From the NCBI RefSeq assembly GCF_002002865.1, contig NZ_CP019508.1:1146501-1210500 (forward strand): 64,000 bases of DNA, in the 5' to 3' direction. This document shows, piece by piece, positions 23,311 through 34,711 of this stretch. The stretch is from Brevundimonas sp. LM2. Lineage in GTDB: Bacteria; Pseudomonadota; Alphaproteobacteria; Caulobacterales; Caulobacteraceae. The notes under the pieces were generated by a model. It made no database searches. It worked only from the letters and a program-made list of their open reading frames with translations, and was not told where the DNA came from. Each line of letters begins with the position of its first letter. The stretch's first letter is position 1. The translations under genes were made by a program, and so were the position numbers.

Positions 23311-24975
23311 ATGTTCCGTTCAAGTCTTATTGTGGCGGCACTCCTGGCCACAGCCCAGGGCGCCAGAGCCCAGCAGCCACCGGTCGGGGGTCAGCTCCAA
23401 CAGATCCCGCCTGTGGCCCCCGCGATCCGGCCCACGCCGGATTTCCGTATCGAGCGACCCGAAGCCCCGGTCGACGCCGCCGCAGAAGGCGCCCGCGTCC
23501 GTGTCGATGCGCTGCGCATCTCGGGCGCGACTCTGTTCCCGGAAGCCGAGTTGTTGGCGGCGACGGAGTTTTCTCCCGGTCTGGACCTCACGCTGCCCGA
23601 ACTCCGCAACATGGCGGCGCGGATCACGCGCTTCTACAATGCGCGGGGCTATGTCCTGGCCCAGGCCTATCTGCCGGCCCAGGACGTCGTCGGCGGAACC
23701 GTCACCCTCGCCGTGGTCGAGGGCCGATACGGCGCCATCGATCTTCGCAACGAGTCCGGACTGGCGGACCGTCAGGTGCGCGGCCTGATCGCCGGTCTGA
23801 ACCCGGGCGATCCGGTCGCCCTCGCGCCGCTGGAACGCCGCCTGTTGCTGCTGTCCGACACGCCCGGCGTCATCGTCAAATCGACGCTATCGCCCGGCGC
23901 CGAGGTCGGCACGTCGGATCTGACGGTCGATCTGGCGCGCGCGCCCCGGATCTACGGCAGTCTGGAAGCCGACAACGCCGGCAATCGCTACACGGGGGCT
24001 TACCGGCTGGGCGGTTCGGTGAACCTCGCCAATGCGACCGGCTTCGGCGATCTGCTCAGCCTGCGCCTGCTGGTTTCCACCGACGATCTGGCCTATGGCC
24101 GCGCCGCCTGGCAGGTCCCCGTCGGCGAGGCCACCGTCGGGGTCGCCTACACCCATATGGAATATGGACTGGGTCGCGAATTCTCGGCGCTCGACGCCGG
24201 GGGGACCGCCGAAATCTTCAGCCTGTTCGCCCGCTATCCGCTCATCCGCTCCCGCAATGCCAACCTCTACGCCCTCGCCGGTTTCGATGCCAAATGGCTC
24301 GGCGAAGAGGTCGGCGTCGTCTCCCAGGTCTCGGACAAGGAAACCCGGGCGGTCACGATCGGCCTGACCGGCGATGTCCGCGACCGCTTCGGCGGCGGGG
24401 GCTGGAACACGGGGACGCTGTCCCTGACCTCGGGCGAACTCGACATCGAGAACCCCGTCGTACGCGCGGCCGACGCCAACACTGCCCGCACCCAGGGCGG
24501 CTTCACCAAGCTGACCTATGCCTTCACCCGGCTGCAGACGATCCGCGGTCCGCTCTCTCTTCACGGCGCACTGCGCGGCCAGTGGGCGGGCGACAATCTG
24601 GACAGCTCCGAGAAGATGGAGCTGGGCGGGGCCTACGGCGTGCGCGCCTATCCGGAAGGCGAGGCCTACGGCGACGAGGGTTATATCGCCACGATCGAAG
24701 CCCGTCTGGCTCTGGACGCATGGACGTCCGGCCTTCCGGGCCATCTCCAGCTGATCGGTTTCGTCGACAGTGGGGAAGTGGATTTCGCCCACGATCCCTG
24801 GTTCTCGGGATCCAACCACGCCCGTCGCAGCGGCGTCGGGACGGGGCTGATCTGGTCCGCCCCCAACGCCCTGCTGGTCAGCGTCACCTATGCGCATCGC
24901 CTCGGCGACCAGGTCTCCACCTCGGGCCCCGACGACGGCGACCGCGCCTGGTTCCAGATCGTGAAACTGTTCTGA
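23311..24975 (+). CDS. Two-partner secretion transporter TpsB (FhaC/ShlB family)
   Basis: A 554-residue outer-membrane protein. The signal peptide ends near ARAQ. Two POTRA domains span about residues 60-210 ([32 protein letters not shown]), followed by a 16-strand-type barrel. The conserved loop-6 motif [14 protein letters not shown] lies near residue 450 and the last strand ends WFQIVKLF, with a terminal Phe for BAM recognition. It should export the TpsA encoded just downstream. Adjacent L,D-transpeptidase-like genes on both sides are unusual company. Confidence 0.93.
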
Positions 24976-25022
24976 TGGCCGCCCCAACCCTTACCCGCGC
25001 TTTTTCCGACAAGGACATTCCG

Positions 25023-27587
<2,565 letters not shown>

Positions 27588-27589
27588 TC

Positions 27590-28297
27590 GTGGCCGTCCC
27601 GTCCGTCGCCTCGAAGCGTCAAGGCCGGCGGGCCGGTTCGCGCGGACTTGTCGCGGTCGCGGTCGCGGTCGCGGGGCTGGCGCTGGGCTTCGCGGCCCCT
27701 GTCTCCGCGCATGAGACAGGGCCATGGAGCGACGGGGCGATGGCTGCCAGCGAGGTCGGCCAGCTGAAGGCCTGGGTGCTGGAGACCGCCGACAACCAGG
27801 GCCTGCCCTTCCTGGTCGTCGACAAAAAGGGGGCCCGGGTGCTGGCCTTCAACGCCGAAGGCCACGTCCTCGGCGTCTCGCCCATCCTGCTCGGCCTGGC
27901 CCGAGGGGATGTCTCGCCCCCCGGCATCGGCGACCTTCCCCTTTCCGCGATCATGCCGGACCAGCGCGTCACGCCCGCGGGTCGCTTCGTGGCGTCCATC
28001 GGCAGAAACCTCGGGGCCAAGAGCATTCTCTGGATCGACTATGGGCTGGCCCTCTCGCTGCACCCGGTGGTCACGGCCAGAGCAGCCGACCGGCGCCTGG
28101 AGCGTCTGGCCTCGGCCACGGTGGACGACAACCGGATCTCCTACGGCTGCATCAACGTTCCGCCGGAGTTCTTTGAAGGCGTCATTCAGCCTGTCTTTCT
28201 GAACACGGTCGGCGTGGTCTACATCCTGCCCGAAACCCAGACCCTGGCCGAGACCTTCTTCGATCCGGCGGGCCAGTCCGTCACACCTCCGCACTAG
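27590..28297 (+). CDS. L,D-transpeptidase-like protein, paralogue downstream of tpsA
   Basis: A GTG start 2 bp after the tpsA stop implies translational coupling in one operon with tpsBA. The product is 235 residues with a signal peptide (VAVAVAVAGLALGFAAPVSA) and the same YkuD-like core as the protein at 22049: RVTPAGRF, ILWIDYGLALSLHPVV, and NRISYGCINV with Cys near residue 186. Again the [ST]HGC His is replaced, here by Tyr. Shared strings such as TVGVVYILPET show recent common ancestry. A role in anchoring or admitting the secreted exoprotein through the wall is conceivable but unproven. Confidence 0.82.
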   Translation: MAVPSVASKRQGRRAGSRGLVAVAVAVAGLALGFAAPVSAHETGPWSDGAMAASEVGQLKAWVLETADNQGLPFLVVDKKGARVLAFNAEGHVLGVSPILLGLARGDVSPPGIGDLPLSAIMPDQRVTPAGRFVASIGRNLGAKSILWIDYGLALSLHPVVTARAADRRLERLASATVDDNRISYGCINVPPEFFEGVIQPVFLNTVGVVYILPETQTLAETFFDPAGQSVTPPH

Positions 28298-28627
28298 CTT
28301 TCAAGCCCCGGACCCTCGGTCAGAACGGTGACGCAAAAGGGCGAGGACGGCGGAGTCGAGACGCCAGGAACAGCGAACCACGCCGACCGGCAAGGGCAGC
28401 TCGCTCCTGCCGTGGCAGCGCCGGTTCGGCCCGGGGTCACGCTGCTTGCGTAGAGATTCAGAGATCTTGGCGCGGGGCCGTGGCGGACAGAGAGTCCGAT
28501 TTACCACCGTCTGACGGCATCCCGCGTTTGATAAAATAGCCTAAAATAATCAACGGCCGTATGAGCTCACGGTCTAGCGTTATCCCAAGTTGTCCCGCAT
28601 AATCCCGGTCTTGCGTTAGGGCTGGCG
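28298..28627. other. Intergenic region containing the left island boundary
   Basis: Apart from the tRNA 3'-end copy at 28475-28494, I see no gene, promoter or terminator that I can support. Base composition drops just right of the repeat. Confidence 0.45.
28475..28494. repeat. att-like direct repeat, distal copy of tRNA-Ser 3' end
   Basis: The 20-mer GGGCCGTGGCGGACAGAGAG matches 34616-34635 at 19 of 20 positions. The right copy includes the CCA end and acceptor stem of tRNA-Ser. This marks the far end of an integrated element of about 6.1 kb. Confidence 0.75.
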
Positions 28628-29082
28628 GCCGCGAAGGTCTGGACGGTTCCGGCCTCGCGCATGAAAGCCGGTCGCGAGCATCGCGTCCCTTTGACCACCG
28701 CCGCCCTAGCGGTTCTAGAAAAGTAAAGCCGCTCACCGGTGGTGCGGCCGATGCCCCGATTTTCCCCGGTATTAAACCGGGCTCCATCCTGTCGGATGCC
28801 GCCTTCAATGCCCTACTGCTTCGCATGGGCATCGACCGCAGCAACGTCACGCCCCACGGGTTCCGCTCCAGCTTTCGCGACTGGGCTGGCGAAATCTCGA
28901 CCTTTCCGCGCGAGTTGGCGGAGGCAGCCCTGGCCAACGTCGTCGGCGACATGACCGAACGGGCTTACCGCCGGGGCGATGCGCTTGAAAAGCGGCGGAA
29001 GCTCATGGAAGGTTGGGCGAGGTTTTGTGAGCCGCGTGCGGCTGAACCGGTGGTGATTCCTCTGGCGAGGCGCGGAGCATGA
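28628..29082 (+). pseudogene. Integrase C-terminal remnant, frameshifted
   Basis: Two overlapping frames spell the C-terminal catalytic part of a P4-type tyrosine recombinase. From about 28634 the frame reads KVWTVPASRMKAGREHRVPL and stops at a TAA near 28726. The next frame continues KPLTGGAADAPIFPGIKPG and NVTPHGFRSSFRDWAGE, with the family's HGFR box, through to the TGA at 29080. A one-base loss near 28720 explains the break, and the N-terminal two thirds are missing. It lies about 135 bp inside the left att-like repeat, so it is probably the relic of the integrase that installed the island. Confidence 0.85.
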
Positions 29083-29882
29083 GCAGTGACCGCGAAAGCC
29101 CGGCGTCAGTCGATGCGCTGCCTAATCCTCTCAGCCCCGACTATAGGGGTATGCGGGAAAGGGTTACGCAGCTTCAAGAACTGCTAGACGGCGCGCGCGT
29201 CGGCGAGATTGACGGGGTCCACTTCGATCTCCGACATGAGAACCTCCCTCCGAGCGAAACTTGGCATGCGCCTGATGGGGCGTCGCCGTTCGGCATCGCA
29301 TTTCCCTGGGACGCAGACTATTTTGATGGCGACCATGTGAAAGCCGCCCAGTTCGTTACTGGGAAAGACATAGATAGCGGTTGGATTACAACTCATGTCC
29401 AACGCGGCGATAAAGTGATCGTCAAACGCGTAGTTATACGCAGACGAGGGTTAGGTAAGCCGCCCTATGTCGAGCATCACGACAACGCATATTATGCCGC
29501 TTACCTAACCATTCAGCACGTCGACGGCATTACGTCTGAGCCCGACACTCCAATCTGCTGGAATGCTCGCGACGCGATGGGACCTCACTCGCCCCACATT
29601 TGGGCAGGTGATGACGGCTTGGACGATTACGTCGGCGACTATCGGGGCAGCTTGGAGAATATAAGCCTTCGCATCGATCACTTATTGAGTTCCACCCATG
29701 TCGCGCCTGAATGGCAGTTGCTTGCGGAGCAGGCAGTTGAGGCACTTGGTTCGGATTGGGCGCGCCCCCAGGACAACAATCTTCCGCAATCCAACGACGA
29801 ACTCGGTTACCTTCTCGATATGGCTGCTGCTGCTGGATATGCATTGGCAAAGTTTGAGGCGGCACCCATTCTCAAGAGTTAA
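29079..29882 (+). CDS. Hypothetical island protein
   Basis: A 267-residue soluble protein whose ATG overlaps the integrase stop (ATGA). No signal peptide or membrane helix is visible. It is acidic, rich in Asp/His/Tyr/Trp, and I do not recognise a family. GC is lower and codon use less biased than in flanking chromosomal genes, consistent with acquisition. The frame is intact while neighbouring island genes are broken, so it may still be selected. Function unknown. Confidence 0.6.
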   Translation: MSSDRESPASVDALPNPLSPDYRGMRERVTQLQELLDGARVGEIDGVHFDLRHENLPPSETWHAPDGASPFGIAFPWDADYFDGDHVKAAQFVTGKDIDSGWITTHVQRGDKVIVKRVVIRRRGLGKPPYVEHHDNAYYAAYLTIQHVDGITSEPDTPICWNARDAMGPHSPHIWAGDDGLDDYVGDYRGSLENISLRIDHLLSSTHVAPEWQLLAEQAVEALGSDWARPQDNNLPQSNDELGYLLDMAAAAGYALAKFEAAPILKS

Positions 29883-29957
29883 AGGACTCGCACTACGGGT
29901 GCGGTAAATGCTCGAAAGGCGCTGACAGCGCCCATTGTAGATGCCGCTAAGGTCTAC

Positions 29958-30263
29958 ATGCGAAGCAATCCTAACACCTCTCTAGGGGCTTGCGCGAGAC
30001 ATCTGAGCGCGACCTTGTCTCGCGACCAAAGGCAAATGGAACGTCTTATCAGCCGGTTTTTCGATCCTGTCGAAACCAAAACCGGCGTTCGCGAAAAGCG
30101 CCCACGGTCCTACATTCTGAGCAACAGGTTCTCTGAACTGTTCTATGGGCCAATCGACGATCCACCGGGCTTGTCGTCAACGGTCCGCTGCCGAATGCGA
30201 CCCTTTAAGTGTCCTCTGGCGTGGCACAGACGGAATAGGCCGCCGGAACATCCTCAGGATTGA
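29958..30263 (+). CDS. Possible small hypothetical protein
   Basis: A 101-codon frame in phase with the preceding gene after its stop. The first 60 residues (ACARHLSATLSRDQRQMERL) look like a helical, basic DNA-binding type segment; the rest is Arg/Pro-rich and less protein-like. There is no clear ribosome site. It may be the truncated remainder of a larger gene. Confidence 0.3.
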   Translation: MRSNPNTSLGACARHLSATLSRDQRQMERLISRFFDPVETKTGVREKRPRSYILSNRFSELFYGPIDDPPGLSSTVRCRMRPFKCPLAWHRRNRPPEHPQD

Positions 30264-30265
30264 AC

Positions 30266-30454
30266 ATGCTGCCCACCTTTCAACCCCTCGCCCTTACCGT
30301 ACAGGATGCGGTCGCCTATTCGGGCCTATCGCGCTCGCGCCTCTACAAGCTCATGCAAACCGGTGAGTTGCCGTCCCTACAGGTCGGTGGTCGCCGCATG
30401 ATCCGACGGGACGCCCTGGATGCCTTCTTCGACAATCTGGGCAAGGCGGCCTGA
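30266..30454 (+). CDS. AlpA/excisionase-type helix-turn-helix protein
   Basis: A 62-residue protein beginning at the ATG at 30266, seven bases after AGGA; a TTG two codons upstream is possible. It has the MerR-like excisionase fold: TVQDAVAYSGLSRSRLYKLM followed by a wing GELPSLQVGGRRMIRRDALDAF. Such proteins direct excision or activate integrase genes in prophages and integrative elements. It heads a tight cluster (gaps of 3 bp or overlaps) with the next two genes. Confidence 0.85.
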   Translation: MLPTFQPLALTVQDAVAYSGLSRSRLYKLMQTGELPSLQVGGRRMIRRDALDAFFDNLGKAA

Positions 30455-30457
30455 ACC

Positions 30458-30850
30458 ATGACCGCACAAACGATGAACCCCGCCGCCGGTGACACGGCAG
30501 GCGGGGTTCGGGATGCTTCGCGAGGCGCGGCGCGTTCCGAACATACCACCGGCACCCGTTCCGACAAGCTGAAGCTGACGGTCTGCCTGCCACCGGCGAC
30601 CGACCCCATCACGGTCGAAGGTCGCGAAGCTCAGACGCTCACGCTCTTGATGAGAGTTGGACCGCGCGGGTTCACGTCTGGCGAGGCTTCACTGCTGGGC
30701 TGGGCGAGGCGAACGAGCGCCTATGTTCGCAAGCTGCGCCTAGCCGGTGTTCCAATCCACACGACATGGGAGGCCACCGACGACGCGAGGGTCGGCCGCT
30801 ATACGCTCGCGGGGCCGGTGGTAGTGGTCGGGCCGGGGGTGTCGCAATGA
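30458..30850 (+). CDS. Winged-helix domain island protein
   Basis: A 130-residue protein: a disordered 40-residue N-terminus, then a winged-helix-like region (TLTLLMRVGPRGFTSGEASL, then WARRTSAYVRKLRLAGVPI, then a wing VGRYTLAG). Similar small proteins occur in alphaproteobacterial prophages and islands upstream of replication genes. It starts 3 bp after the AlpA-like gene and overlaps the next start by 4 bp. DNA binding is inferred from fold pattern only. Confidence 0.6.
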   Translation: MTAQTMNPAAGDTAGGVRDASRGAARSEHTTGTRSDKLKLTVCLPPATDPITVEGREAQTLTLLMRVGPRGFTSGEASLLGWARRTSAYVRKLRLAGVPIHTTWEATDDARVGRYTLAGPVVVVGPGVSQ

Positions 30851-31122
30851 CCGCGCCCGGACCCGTACCGATCTGGAGCCTGCCGCTGAGCAGCAATTCA
30901 GTACTGCGCTTGGTGCTCGATAGCTTCAACGGACGGCCTCGCGCCGACCTGAGAACGTGGACTGACTATGCCGCCGGGCCTGTCCCTACACGAGGGCCGA
31001 CACGCAGAGGCGTCAGCATCGCAATCAGCGACCTTCCGGCTCTCGCCGGTGCCATGCGGGATGCGGAAAGCACGGCGCGTGACCTGGGCCTTTTGCCTCA
31101 CGCGGACATGAAAACGGAATAG
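30847..31122 (+). CDS. PC4/p15-like coactivator domain protein
   Basis: A 91-residue protein whose ATG overlaps the previous stop. The pattern LRLVLDSFNGRPRADLRTW, then PTRRGVSIAISDLPALAGAM, follows the PC4/transcriptional coactivator p15 fold (a strand with 'vdiRew', then 'PTrkGisl' and a C-terminal helix). PC4-like proteins bind single-stranded DNA, which would suit a replication module next to a Rep-like gene. The assignment is by eye. Confidence 0.55.
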   Translation: MTAPGPVPIWSLPLSSNSVLRLVLDSFNGRPRADLRTWTDYAAGPVPTRGPTRRGVSIAISDLPALAGAMRDAESTARDLGLLPHADMKTE

Positions 31123-31157
31123 GACGCCGCTGGGGCCGTTCGTAACCACCGGGGGCA

Positions 31158-32171
31158 ATGTTCCGCCTTCGGTGGTCGCGAGCGCTCCTGTGGCTTCCTA
31201 AGTCGTTTCTAGCGCCTCCCATGATCTGCACCGTTCCACGCAACGCCATCGCTGCGCACGTCGTCGGCGAAGGTGAACGCCGTTCACAGTGTCACCCCGT
31301 CCCGTCGCGTCCATGTTTGACTTTGGCCCGAAAGCCGGTTCGACAGGATGCTGGCGGGGGCGACCAAGTTATTGATCGGCCTGATCTTACAGCAAAATAC
31401 AGCACAAGCAGCGATGCGGCCTCCTATCCTTATAAGAGTGCAGGCCAACGGCGAGAGCACACACAAGCGTCCGGGGAAGCCGGGCGGGGCGCAGAGCCTT
31501 CAAACAGCGCAGCGCCTAGCCCGGCGTCACCACCGGCCACCCACGCGGGCGTAAAAGCTTTCAAAAGCATTCCGGGCCGTGGTGGTGCGCGTAACCGTGC
31601 CGACCGCTGGTCACATGCCATATCCAGCGCGGCCGAAGACAATTTGGCGGAGGCGGCATGGTTTGCTGCGGCGGTCGGTATGCCCTTCAACCGCATGACC
31701 ACCGTGCATTGGGAAAAAGGGGGTGTGACTGACGGGCTGGCCGCCACCCGGCGGCTGATCAAAGCCCTGTCCCGGCTGATCCGCTCACGCGGCCATGCCT
31801 TCGCCTGCTTGTGGGTAAGGGAAAGCGGACCGGACAAGGGCGAGCACGTCCACATTCTATGACATGGCCCAGCTTACCTACCCGACCTGTCCCGATGGCT
31901 CCGCCGAATTCTGAAGCGTTGCGGAGCGCAGTGGAAGGATGGGGTTCGCGATACCCGCGCAATCGGTCGCGGCCTGAATACCGCGACGGCCGGTGGTGAA
32001 GACTACCGCGCAAATCTCAACCGGGGCGTCAAATACGTCTGTAAGGGTGCCGACGGCGAGGTGCTGCTGACCTTGGGGCGACGGCACGAACCCGGTGGTG
32101 AGATTGTTGGGAAGCGGTGCGGCGTGAGCCGCAACATCGACCTGACCGCAAGGACGAAGGCGCGGTGGTGA
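31158..32171 (+). pseudogene. Rep-like protein with HxH motif, interrupted by in-frame stop
   Basis: One reading frame spans the region but contains a TGA at 31860-31862. Before it: FNRMTTVHWEKGGV, then a long helix and FACLWVRESGPDKGEHVHIL. After it, in the same frame: HGPAYLPDLSRWLRRILKRC, EDYRANLNRGVKYVCKG, ending TARTKARW at 32168. The HVH triad and layout resemble rolling-circle or inovirus/plasmid-type replication initiators found in small mobile elements. The protein start is uncertain, and the first 100 codons look weakly coding. A single base change would restore the frame, so this is a recent nonsense mutation or a sequencing error. Confidence 0.6.
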
Positions 32172-32173
32172 TT
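32113..32173 (+). repeat. 61-bp direct repeat, copy 1 (Rep tail)
   Basis: Covers the last codons of the Rep-like gene. It matches 33240-33300 at 55 of 61 positions without gaps, and the second copy translates to the same tail (RCGVSRNIDRTARAKTRW then stop). Confidence 0.85.
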
Positions 32174-32273
32174 GTATCCCGCCAAGAGCGTAAGTTTTGA
32201 ACTGTTGCGGGCTGGAGCAGCATACCCTTACCTAAGCATCGCAACCCGCCCTGAAAGCGAGCGTTGAGGAGGA

Positions 32274-32489
32274 ATGGGACTGCAAATTTCCGTTTTCCAG
32301 GCCGTGTTTGCGGTCCTCGTCATCATTGGGCTGGGATTGCTTTGGGCGAATGCGGCCAAGGGGGTGGACCGCCCCACGCGGATTACCGATGTCGACAAAG
32401 ATGGCGCAGGGGATGTCGACCCGAAAGAGAAGGAAGCCACGGTGCAAGCCTTTGAAGAAGAGCAAGCCCGGCGCCATCCTGAAGACTAA
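32274..32489 (+). CDS. Small single-pass membrane protein
   Basis: A 71-residue protein with an excellent GAGGAGGA ribosome site directly upstream. The N-terminus is one transmembrane helix (VFQAVFAVLVIIGLGLLWA) followed by a charged, acidic cytosolic or periplasmic tail (DVDKDGAGDVDPKEKEATVQ) with an EF-hand-like Asp pattern. No family is recognised. It lies between the Rep-like gene and the HAD gene, inside the segment bracketed by the 61-bp repeats. Confidence 0.65.
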   Translation: MGLQISVFQAVFAVLVIIGLGLLWANAAKGVDRPTRITDVDKDGAGDVDPKEKEATVQAFEEEQARRHPED

Positions 32490-32579
32490 TGTACGTCGAA
32501 TATAGTGGCCTTTCTCGAAATCACGCGGAAGATGAGCGGCCTAACGGTCTAGGTAGTAGGATGCGGCAGGGCGTGAGGG

Positions 32580-33188
32580 TCAAACAACGCCCGCGTCCCT
32601 TAGTTCACGAACCAACCTGTCGTGGTCCAAATACTGCACGGCTCGCCAGCCTGCTTTCCTGCTGGCTTCAACATTGGCGGCATTGTCGTCGATGAAGAAG
32701 GTCGCGGATGGATCGAGGCCGAACGAACGCTGGTGGTGGGCGAAGATTGCCGGATCAGGCTTGATCAGCCCGATCTCACCCGAAACGGTTACCCCGCGAG
32801 CTCGCCTCAGAAAGGGAAACATTCTCTGCGCCTCGACGAAGGTGTCCGAGGAAAAGTTTGTTAGCAAGGTCACGTCGCGCCCTTCGTCGATTAACTGCTC
32901 ATACAAGGCGACGGTTGGTGCGATGCGGTCGTGAACCATCAGGCTCCAGTTGGCGCGGAAAGCCCGGATGCGCGACGCCTGGTCCGGCCACTCGGCAATC
33001 AATGTCGCCTCCGCTTCGGCCCACGGGCGGCCACGATCCTGCTCCAAATTCCAGGCCTCGGTGCAAACGGTGTCCAGGAACCATGCTCGGTCGTCGGCAT
33101 CAGGTATGCTCGCCATCAGCCCCCTATGCGGCTCGTAGCGGATTAGAACCCTCCCGATATCGAAAACGAGGTGGCGAAGAGTTTCCAT
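32580..33188 (-). CDS. HAD superfamily hydrolase (subfamily IA)
   Basis: A 202-residue protein with all HAD motifs: I, VFDIGRVLI (second Asp replaced by Gly, as in the epoxide hydrolase N-terminal/YihX-like group); II, LLTNFS; III, Lys in LIKPDPAIF; IV, FIDDNAANV. Such enzymes dephosphorylate small molecules such as sugar phosphates. It is an intact cargo gene within an otherwise broken island and lies between the two 61-bp repeats. Reading opposite to its neighbours suggests separate acquisition. Confidence 0.85.
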   Translation of the reverse strand: METLRHLVFDIGRVLIRYEPHRGLMASIPDADDRAWFLDTVCTEAWNLEQDRGRPWAEAEATLIAEWPDQASRIRAFRANWSLMVHDRIAPTVALYEQLIDEGRDVTLLTNFSSDTFVEAQRMFPFLRRARGVTVSGEIGLIKPDPAIFAHHQRSFGLDPSATFFIDDNAANVEASRKAGWRAVQYLDHDRLVRELRDAGVV

Positions 33189-33239
33189 CTGGCGAGCTTA
33201 TATCAGCCCGGAAGATGGGGTCGAGCCATAGGCGACCCT

Positions 33240-33300
33240 AGCGGTGCGGCGTGAGCCGCAACATCGATCGGACCGCTAGAGCGAAGACGCGGTGGTGATT
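33240..33300 (+). repeat. 61-bp direct repeat, copy 2
   Basis: Second copy of the Rep-like C-terminal coding tail, still in frame to a TGA but without any upstream Rep sequence. The remaining non-coding stretch 33301-33576 shows no gene I can support. Confidence 0.85.
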
Positions 33301-33576
33301 CACTTCGCCCGAAAGCAGACTCCCTAACGGTCGATTATGAGTCGAGAATGGGCATGCACGTTATCCGCAGAAGCGGACGTTACTCGTGAGCTCAGGGACG
33401 GGGGTAGCTGACATCTCCGATGCGCCGTCCGATTTAGACATCGCGATTATTGGGGCCTCACGCCCATGCTCGCCAGCGGTTTTTTAAGAAGGTGGCTAAG
33501 GCGCATCGTGATTCCCATCCTTACGGAAAGCAGCGAAGAATTTGCCCGCTTGAGCCAGCGCGTTCAGGTGGTGAGC

Positions 33577-34300
33577 TCAAAGCTGCCCCCCAGTTTCTGG
33601 GTTCAAGTGGTGGTCTGTGGGATCTGGGTGACGCCAGACGTCTGCGATGACTCCTCGGTCCTCATCAAGCAAATCAGACGTCAGATCGATGAATGGCAGC
33701 GCCCGACTCATCGTTTCCCGCCGCAGCGCCGCATTATATGCGAGGGTGAGCCGGGTCCGCTCGACCTGTGTCGCAGTAACCTCGCGACGAAGATTTGGCG
33801 ACCTCAACGCCAAGTTCGCCGTCTCTGATCGTGGGGATTACCGCGCCAGTCACGACGACCGTCGGATATCCGGCGCAAAGCAGCTCATCCACGAAGCCGA
33901 AGTAAGCCTTGATCGATGCCAACATCTGAGCCTCGATGCTGTCACCCAGCTTTTCCGCGCGATACCAAATAACAAAGCCACAATCGACTTCTCCAAGCTG
34001 CAGCACTGGTATGGCGTTGCTCCGCGCTGGGATTACGGCATCTCGAAACTGGCTCAGAGCGTTCGTCGCCGAGTTTGGATTTCGCATTCCTACTGCTGTC
34101 GCACCCCCCACTAAGATGGATTTGCAAGGCAGGGTAAGATGTTTGGTGCCGGCCACAATTGCGTCGACGTGGCTATCGCCAATGACTAGCCAATATGGCT
34201 GCTCCACTGAGTTCTCGGCGTTGTTAAACATGTCTCGATGCCTTCGTTCAGATTCGGCATTTTCAACGGCAATCCCGGGTGGGAGACGTTTCGCGACCAA
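33577..34300 (-). pseudogene. SGNH/GDSL-like hydrolase, frameshifted
   Basis: Two minus-strand frames join into one SGNH-fold protein. The upstream frame has YWLVIGDSHVDAIVAG (block I Ser), a Gly block near VGGATAVG, and LQLGEVDCGFVIW, then runs to VVVTGAVIPTIRDGELGVEV. The downstream frame continues TATQVERTRLTLAYNAALR and ends with DPTDHHLNPETGG, the block V Asp-His pair. The frame changes near 33800. Intact members are esterases or acetylhydrolases acting on carbohydrates. The start is uncertain (34300 by TTG, or the ATG of MFNNAENS near 34231). Confidence 0.7.
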
Positions 34301-34615
34301 TATGCGCGCACGAGCGCGACAATAGACGTCGTCAACCGCGCTCTACATTTTTGCATGACGTCGGCATTTGGCACACCAGAAACCGACCTCGATCTAAAGT
34401 AGATCGATTTAAACGCGCCGGGTCGCTTGCCGTTGACAGGTTTGAGAAGTTTCCCCACGCCCGCGTCCGCGCGCGACACAGGCATTCGCAGATTTTTCCA
34501 TTCGCAGATTTTTCGGACGCACGCAGTCGCGTCAGCCAAAGCATGTTGTTAGGGCGCAAGTTGGGGCAGCGCTCGCAAGCTTGATTTTAATCAATAGAAA
34601 TCAAGACGTTATGGC
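34301..34615. other. Island right-end non-coding stretch
   Basis: About 315 bases of relatively AT-rich sequence between the SGNH remnant and the tRNA gene. Short opposite-strand ORFs exist (75-117 codons) but show no ribosome site or family features. I see nothing firmly annotatable. Confidence 0.4.
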
Positions 34616-34635
34616 GGGCGGTGGCGGACAGAGAG
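34616..34635. repeat. att-like direct repeat at tRNA-Ser 3' end
   Basis: Right copy of the island boundary repeat (19 of 20 positions match 28475-28494). It covers the CCA end and 3' acceptor strand of the tRNA gene, the standard attachment site for tyrosine integrases. Confidence 0.75.
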
Positions 34636-34711
34636 GGATTCGAACCCTCGGTAGGCTTTCACCTACACACGCTTTCCAAGCGTGCGCGATCGACCACTCC
34701 GCCACCTGTCC
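34622..34711 (-). tRNA. tRNA-Ser (anticodon GGA)
   Basis: The minus strand folds as a 90-nt class II tRNA. The acceptor stem GGACAGG pairs with TCTGTCC, with discriminator G and an encoded CCA. The anticodon arm is CACGC-TTGGAAA-GCGTG with GGA reading UCC. There is a long variable arm and a GGTTCGAATCC T-loop. The gene's 3' end forms the island attachment site and remains intact. Confidence 0.95.

Follow-up and report, generated by a model that had tools for sequence, protein, structure and literature searches.

What is the low-GC stretch that lies against a tRNA-Ser(GGA) gene in Brevundimonas sp. LM2, and how did it come to be there? The stretch falls within a window of 64,000 nucleotides (positions 1,146,501-1,210,500 of the 3.56-Mb single-contig genome; all positions below are in the numbering of the whole window), for which an earlier note, made from the sequence alone, had proposed a genomic island inserted at the 3' end of the tRNA gene and bounded by a repeat. 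Our analysis indicates that the 6.1 kb beside this gene are very probably the immobile remains of a small, decayed integrative element whose family is dedicated to tRNA-Ser genes. The island itself is an ordinary fossil, whilst the family it points to is coherent.

ARAGORN finds a single tRNA gene in the window, tRNA-Ser(GGA) at 34622-34711 on the minus strand. The 20-bp repeat described earlier, matching at 19 of 20 bases, is present at 28475-28494 and 34616-34635 with one mismatch (chance expectation 0.05 matches; two in none of 100 shuffles). Because the tRNA gene ends at 34622, the true repeat is the 14-mer CTCTCTGTCCGCCA, found at 28481-28494 and 34622-34635 in direct orientation on the minus strand, and the remaining six bases of the 20-mer lie outside the tRNA. 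The earlier reading of an island at the tRNA-Ser 3' end with the repeat as its boundary is supported. The limits first given as 28475 to 34711 need correction, as the island proper covers 28495-34621 and 34711 is the 5' end of the tRNA gene:

28481..28494, minus strand: distal attachment core (attR), repeating the final 14 bp of tRNA-Ser (sequence match)
28495..34621, no strand: island body between the cores, 6.1 kb, GC 0.596
34622..34635, minus strand: tRNA-side attachment core (attL), the last 14 bases of the tRNA gene (sequence match)
34622..34711, minus strand: tRNA-Ser(GGA), the target gene (ARAGORN)

The lower GC content reported earlier was borne out, being 0.596 between the 14-mer copies versus 0.680 in the rest of the window and lower than in any of 579 equally long windows stepped at 100 bases. 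The arrangement is that expected of a tDNA island, with a whole tRNA gene at one end, a same-orientation 3' fragment at the other and a tyrosine integrase inside, which is a remnant in the window and full length in the two loci described next. Near the tRNA-side end, a 16-mer is perfectly duplicated in tandem (34483-34514).

Homologs of the island's winged-helix gene (HTH_91) were detected in 14 of 390 genomes of the bacterial family, the window genome included, and in two genus-mates, G057 (locus L186) and G111 (locus L188), the homolog lies beside tRNA-Ser(GGA) and the 14-mer recurs at distances of 7.28 and 6.46 kb, respectively, marking the far end. Both loci encode full-length integrases with arm-binding, central and catalytic domains, located at the far end and reading inward. 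L188 carries an integrase, AlpA, HTH_91 (in two pieces), a 438-aa open reading frame (ORF) and a 326-aa replication initiator (Rep); in L186 no Rep match was found, and another helix-turn-helix protein occupies the Rep position. G111 is probably a metagenome-assembled genome (MAG), and a protein 99% identical to part of its Rep carries a Caulobacteraceae MAG label.

For the G111 insertion, the comparison with empty sites succeeds. The sequence outside its distal core resembles what immediately follows tRNA-Ser(GGA) in six relatives (G105, G048, G041, G107, G095 and G122), the matches beginning at the first core base and reaching 72-80% identity over 75-416 bases, 14 of which are the core; in three of them (G048, G041 and G095) a second piece matches further along. 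Five of the six hold a single copy of the 14-mer, and G122 has its second copy on another contig. Weaker matches to this flank elsewhere (for example in G135 and G071) start away from the first core base. An island in G129, with an integrase 49% like that of L188, offers a second such comparison, its outer flank matching the post-tRNA sequence of G064 at 82% over 515 bases, although G064 itself carries a further distal copy.

The earlier expectation that an empty tRNA-Ser locus would join directly to the window's own left flank was not borne out. When bases 27400-28474 were compared with 131 genus genomes, 66 showed some match (the flank gene or short pieces); among the matches listed none passes window base 28280, and about 190 bases left of the repeat are unmatched in the 131 genomes. 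The 12 kb left of the tRNA in the loci of 22 relatives gave only the tRNA overlap and isolated weak matches to the window, and 15 stretches fetched around relatives of the left-flank gene contained no tRNA. Left of the island, a large ORF with a long PTPT repeat (24294-27587, haemagglutinin-like by eye) adjoins an accessory gene (27590-28297). The lack of an empty site for the window's own flank is what speaks for the view that the 14-bp repeat arose by chance or is a common motif, in a stretch of ordinary chromosome with decayed genes, a view we consider scarcely credible: the 14-mer occurs exactly twice in the genome, a reversed-motif control gave 3 matches in total over the 131 genus genomes, homologous elements in G057 and G111 have the same 14-mer pair at their ends, and the island has the lowest GC of the 579 windows.

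The genes named in the earlier note, namely an integrase remnant, an excisionase-like gene and a Rep-like gene, together with broken frames, were all found between the repeats:

28628..29082 (approximate bounds), plus strand: integrase remnant, codons ~255 onward only, with a frame change and ~0.8 kb missing upstream (relatives, phrog_1)
29079..29882, plus strand: 267-aa ORF overlapping the integrase end by ATGA; the 5' part, with a stop at its end (ORF list, relatives)
29958..30263, plus strand: probable 3' part of the ORF that follows the integrase (one open frame in L186 covers both matching parts)
30260..30454, plus strand: AlpA/excisionase-like gene (HTH_17), open frame (Pfam E 1.7e-12; TIGR01764 excise E 1.3e-9)
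30458..30850, plus strand: winged-helix protein (HTH_91), open frame (Pfam E 2.5e-14, homologs)
30847..31122, plus strand: 91-aa ORF without a PHROGs or NCBIfam match (homologs in L186, L187, L197 and L260)
31170..32171, plus strand: predicted HUH replication initiator (Rep), broken by an in-frame TGA (31860-31862) that immediately follows the HUH motif
32274..32489, plus strand: cargo ORF, 71 aa, no Pfam match (ORF list)
32580..33188, minus strand: cargo HAD-IA family hydrolase (profile match)
33734..34300, minus strand: cargo ORF, 188 aa, no convincing family match (ORF list)

The integrase remnant matches the phrog_1 integrase in PHROGs (E 9.4e-5) and had no Pfam match at 0.1, so that it is visible via PHROGs and the relatives. 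By its motif, Rep is a putative HUH-type rolling-circle initiator: residues H211, H213, Y276 and K279 (the HxH metal motif and the catalytic Tyr/Lys) are invariant across 34 sequences, and the window copy is interrupted between the HxH motif and the catalytic pair. Strong homologs of the HAD-IA hydrolase (55-61%) occur in two of 130 other genus genomes, and weak, partial ones in 38. A defence gene was considered and rejected, the sole match being that of the AlpA-type gene to mad1 (E 5e-7), at 17.6 bits against the NCBI MAD1 cut-off of 80.

The manner in which the window copy decayed can be followed at its ends. L186 and L188 each have two tandem pairs of ~12-bp units, one some 50 bases inward of the tRNA-side core and the other immediately ahead of the integrase, all in direct orientation on the chromosome, and these tandem repeats inside the ends may well be integrase arm sites. 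The window has the following counterparts:

34548..34570, plus strand: tandem putative arm-site pair, units ~12 bp, tRNA side (comparison with relatives)
28615..28622, plus strand: putative arm-site remnant adjoining attR, at the deletion edge (L186 and L188 have a tandem pair there)

The 19 bases starting at 34547 recur without change upstream of the integrase of locus L196. Beside attR, the window retains the first unit only, and within a few bases the homology skips to integrase codon ~255; compared with three relatives, 781-808 bp are absent. A deletion of ~0.8 kb has removed the integrase N-terminus and half of the attR-side repeat pair. Both cores are kept in the window copy, there is no working integrase and the remnant also shifts frame. 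The copy looks immobile and should be unable to move unaided, since the integrase N-terminus is deleted and both Rep and the ORF after the integrase are broken by stops.

Across the genus, the same tRNA gene is occupied repeatedly. The 14-mer is present in 122 of the 131 genomes, and in 19 of the 131 (window genome included) a single contig bears a pair of copies on the same strand with 5.4-48 kb between them. One end of the pair proved to be tRNA-Ser(GGA) in 16 of these 19, the remainder being G047 (contig without a tRNA), G060 (distal end only) and G098 (unfetched); the island middles of G058, G068, G091 and G143 were left out of the comparison. Two groups emerge from the 18 distal copies seen. 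In 11 the match extends by one extra C to a 15-mer, and only one of them (G138) matches the window-type integrase in the parts fetched, and weakly; the other seven (window, G057, G111, G060, G068, G091 and G129) all match it. A different island group at tRNA-Ser(GGA), with a 15-bp core and related tRNA-side sequence, is represented by L216, L218, L219, L221, L223, L224, L227, L231 and L233.

Beyond the genus, Rep matches were found in 11 of 299 order genomes and seven of 298 class genomes (window genome counted in both), those in G431, G262, G538, G046, G071 and G739 being left out of the locus comparison. In fourteen loci, an IntA-type integrase occurs together with a homolog of Rep or of HTH_91 (window, L186, L188, L189, L191, L196, L258, L259, L260, L261, L297, L298, L299 and L301). 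A tRNA is visible in 12 of the 14 and is tRNA-Ser in every case, with anticodons GGA (5), GCT (3), CGA (3) and TGA (1). In 10 of the 12, the final 14 bases of the element's own tRNA recur exactly at the far end, 4.8-7.5 kb away; L259, whose contig ends soon after the integrase, and L261 show no such copy. L191 and L196 show a tRNA-Ser-like 14-mer adjoining the integrase. The element-side bases before the core are GGA in seven of nine cases and GGT in two. The far-end position of the integrase, called unusual in the earlier note, is the usual layout of the family, since the integrase is distal in nine of the 12 and beside the tRNA in three (L261, L297 and L298). Four loci (L297, L298, L299 and L301) lie in genomes that do not belong to the window's order, and the 12 tRNA-linked elements span at least two orders. 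The core genes are a tyrosine integrase, an AlpA-like gene, a winged-helix protein and the HUH Rep, some members lacking the full set. In the cargo region of the G618 element, a 108-bp repeat occurs in five copies (L260:12108-12845). Some loci run counter to the pattern: L300 and L302 have Rep but neither IntA nor tRNA-Ser, and certain HTH_91 loci sit close to other tRNAs and give no match to the window integrase fragment. That fragment is unmatched in nine of 14 fetched loci, a set other than the fourteen listed above. Taken together, the intact relatives in other alphaproteobacterial tRNA-Ser genes appear to form an unnamed family; no name for it was found in the open-licence literature searched (titles and abstract starts).

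Two copies of the Rep 3' end flank the 71-aa ORF and the HAD hydrolase:

32113..32173, plus strand: 61-bp repeat, first copy, at the Rep 3' end
33240..33300, plus strand: Rep 3' end, second copy, 90% identical

Such a repeat could come either from the fusion of neighbouring elements or from cargo acquired at the rep 3' end. Under fusion, a deletion would have joined two tandem elements into the window island, and an older neighbour would have contributed the Rep end at 33240-33300 together with the cargo that follows it. The 90% rather than 100% identity of the Rep ends fits this, as does L186, where a second integrase (L186:13683-14900) starts just past the distal core and reads away, probably belonging to a tandem element at the same tRNA. 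G793, from another order, also has Rep-end fragments downstream of Rep (L297:8354-9247), one with GKRCG codons and a longer degenerate one, and the GKRCG region is included in the fragments of both genomes; the other Rep-bearing loci compared show no Rep-end fragment inside the element. Between the window's Rep ends there is neither an internal 14-mer copy nor a trace of a second integrase, and we regard fusion as a real possibility that we nevertheless lean against.

In intact members, the tyrosine integrase would bind the arm sites just inside both ends and recombine its 14-bp attP core with the matching 3'-terminal 14 bases of a tRNA-Ser gene, so that the tRNA stays intact. AlpA would serve as excisionase, and the excised circle may then be copied by the HUH Rep via rolling-circle replication (RCR). 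Passage between cells would require a helper (phage or conjugative element), as no capsid or conjugation gene was recognised in the 4.8-7.5-kb elements. We tentatively propose, with a little less than even confidence in the whole, an alphaproteobacterial family of minimal integrative elements (4.8-7.5 kb) for tRNA-Ser, in which the integrases follow the isoacceptor whose last 14 bases the element carries (GGA, GCT, CGA or TGA), the HUH Rep copies the circle, and cargo enters at the rep 3' end, leaving the Rep-end scars of the window and G793, the elements being helper-dependent satellites or hitchhikers. That the window island is instead the remnant of a defective integrated phage, as its phage-type integrase and AlpA-like gene might suggest, is very improbable: relatives with exact ends are only 4.8-7.5 kb long, no structural gene was matched among the proteins scanned, a scan of viral contigs gave 13 pattern matches with no relatives among them, and the G111 Rep matched none of 50,697 phage records at E 1e-5. 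Rather unlikely, in our estimate, is that the intact members are not phage satellites and travel as conjugation hitchhikers, i.e., integrative and mobilizable elements (IMEs), with the HUH Rep doubling as relaxase. The HUH type of Rep by motif agrees with this, and the IME survey in PMC5704250 describes, in the part drawn on here, 118 of 144 streptococcal IMEs as having a putative relaxase with kinship to RCR initiators; coupling-protein, mobilization and relaxase families were unmatched among the scanned window, L186 and L188 proteins, each element being scanned in part. The type of Rep does not separate the satellite from the IME reading.

Among known systems, actinomycete integrative and conjugative elements (AICEs) such as pSAM2 insert into a tRNA gene with a module of Rep, Xis and Int and carry a DNA translocase for conjugation; the tRNA-Ser elements resemble them in having a Rep/Xis/Int-type module in a tRNA gene and differ in that no translocase was recognised. 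P4-type satellites count among the tDNA islands. As far as the Islander account goes (PMC4383910), tDNA islands combine a tyrosine integrase, the 3' end of a tRNA gene and a displaced fragment at the far end, all of which the tRNA-Ser family shares, whereas the family is very small, uses tRNA-Ser in every case seen, usually has its integrase at the far end and carries an HUH Rep. The IMEs, in the portion of PMC5704250 considered, likewise have a tyrosine integrase at tRNA 3' ends and, in some, RCR-type initiators, as does our family; its scanned proteins include no recognised mobilization gene, and the RCR-type IME examples given there are streptococcal. Phage-inducible chromosomal minimalist islands (PICMIs) of Vibrionaceae have, in the sections of PMC10803314 that concern us, six genes in the prototype, in the order int, a gene with an ATGA overlap with int, AlpA (HTH_17 being among its models) and a replication gene; they carry a primase (DUF3987/DUF5906), with the prototype at fis, and are described there as being without capsid-remodelling genes. 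The likeness to these passages lies in int (as a remnant) and alpA together in the window, the ATGA overlap after int, a replication gene downstream of AlpA, site-specific integration and, as far as genes were recognised, the lack of capsid-remodelling functions. The differences are the target, which is tRNA-Ser (all 12 tRNAs seen beside family elements) rather than fis, the HUH Rep in the primase position in the window and L188, and the helper phage, none being known for the tRNA-Ser elements. The DUF3987/DUF5906 primase was unmatched among the scanned window, L186 and L188 proteins.

The near absence of the G111 Rep from phage and plasmid collections, where at E 1e-5 the plasmid set of 72,556 records yielded one match, means that such elements are probably overlooked by current annotation. 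One odd, broken island leads to a family whose ends are exact, whose target is always of one kind and which includes intact members, making excision, replication and helper use testable, and its natural series of 14-mers over four tRNA-Ser isoacceptors offers a ready set for studying how tyrosine integrases switch between tRNA targets.

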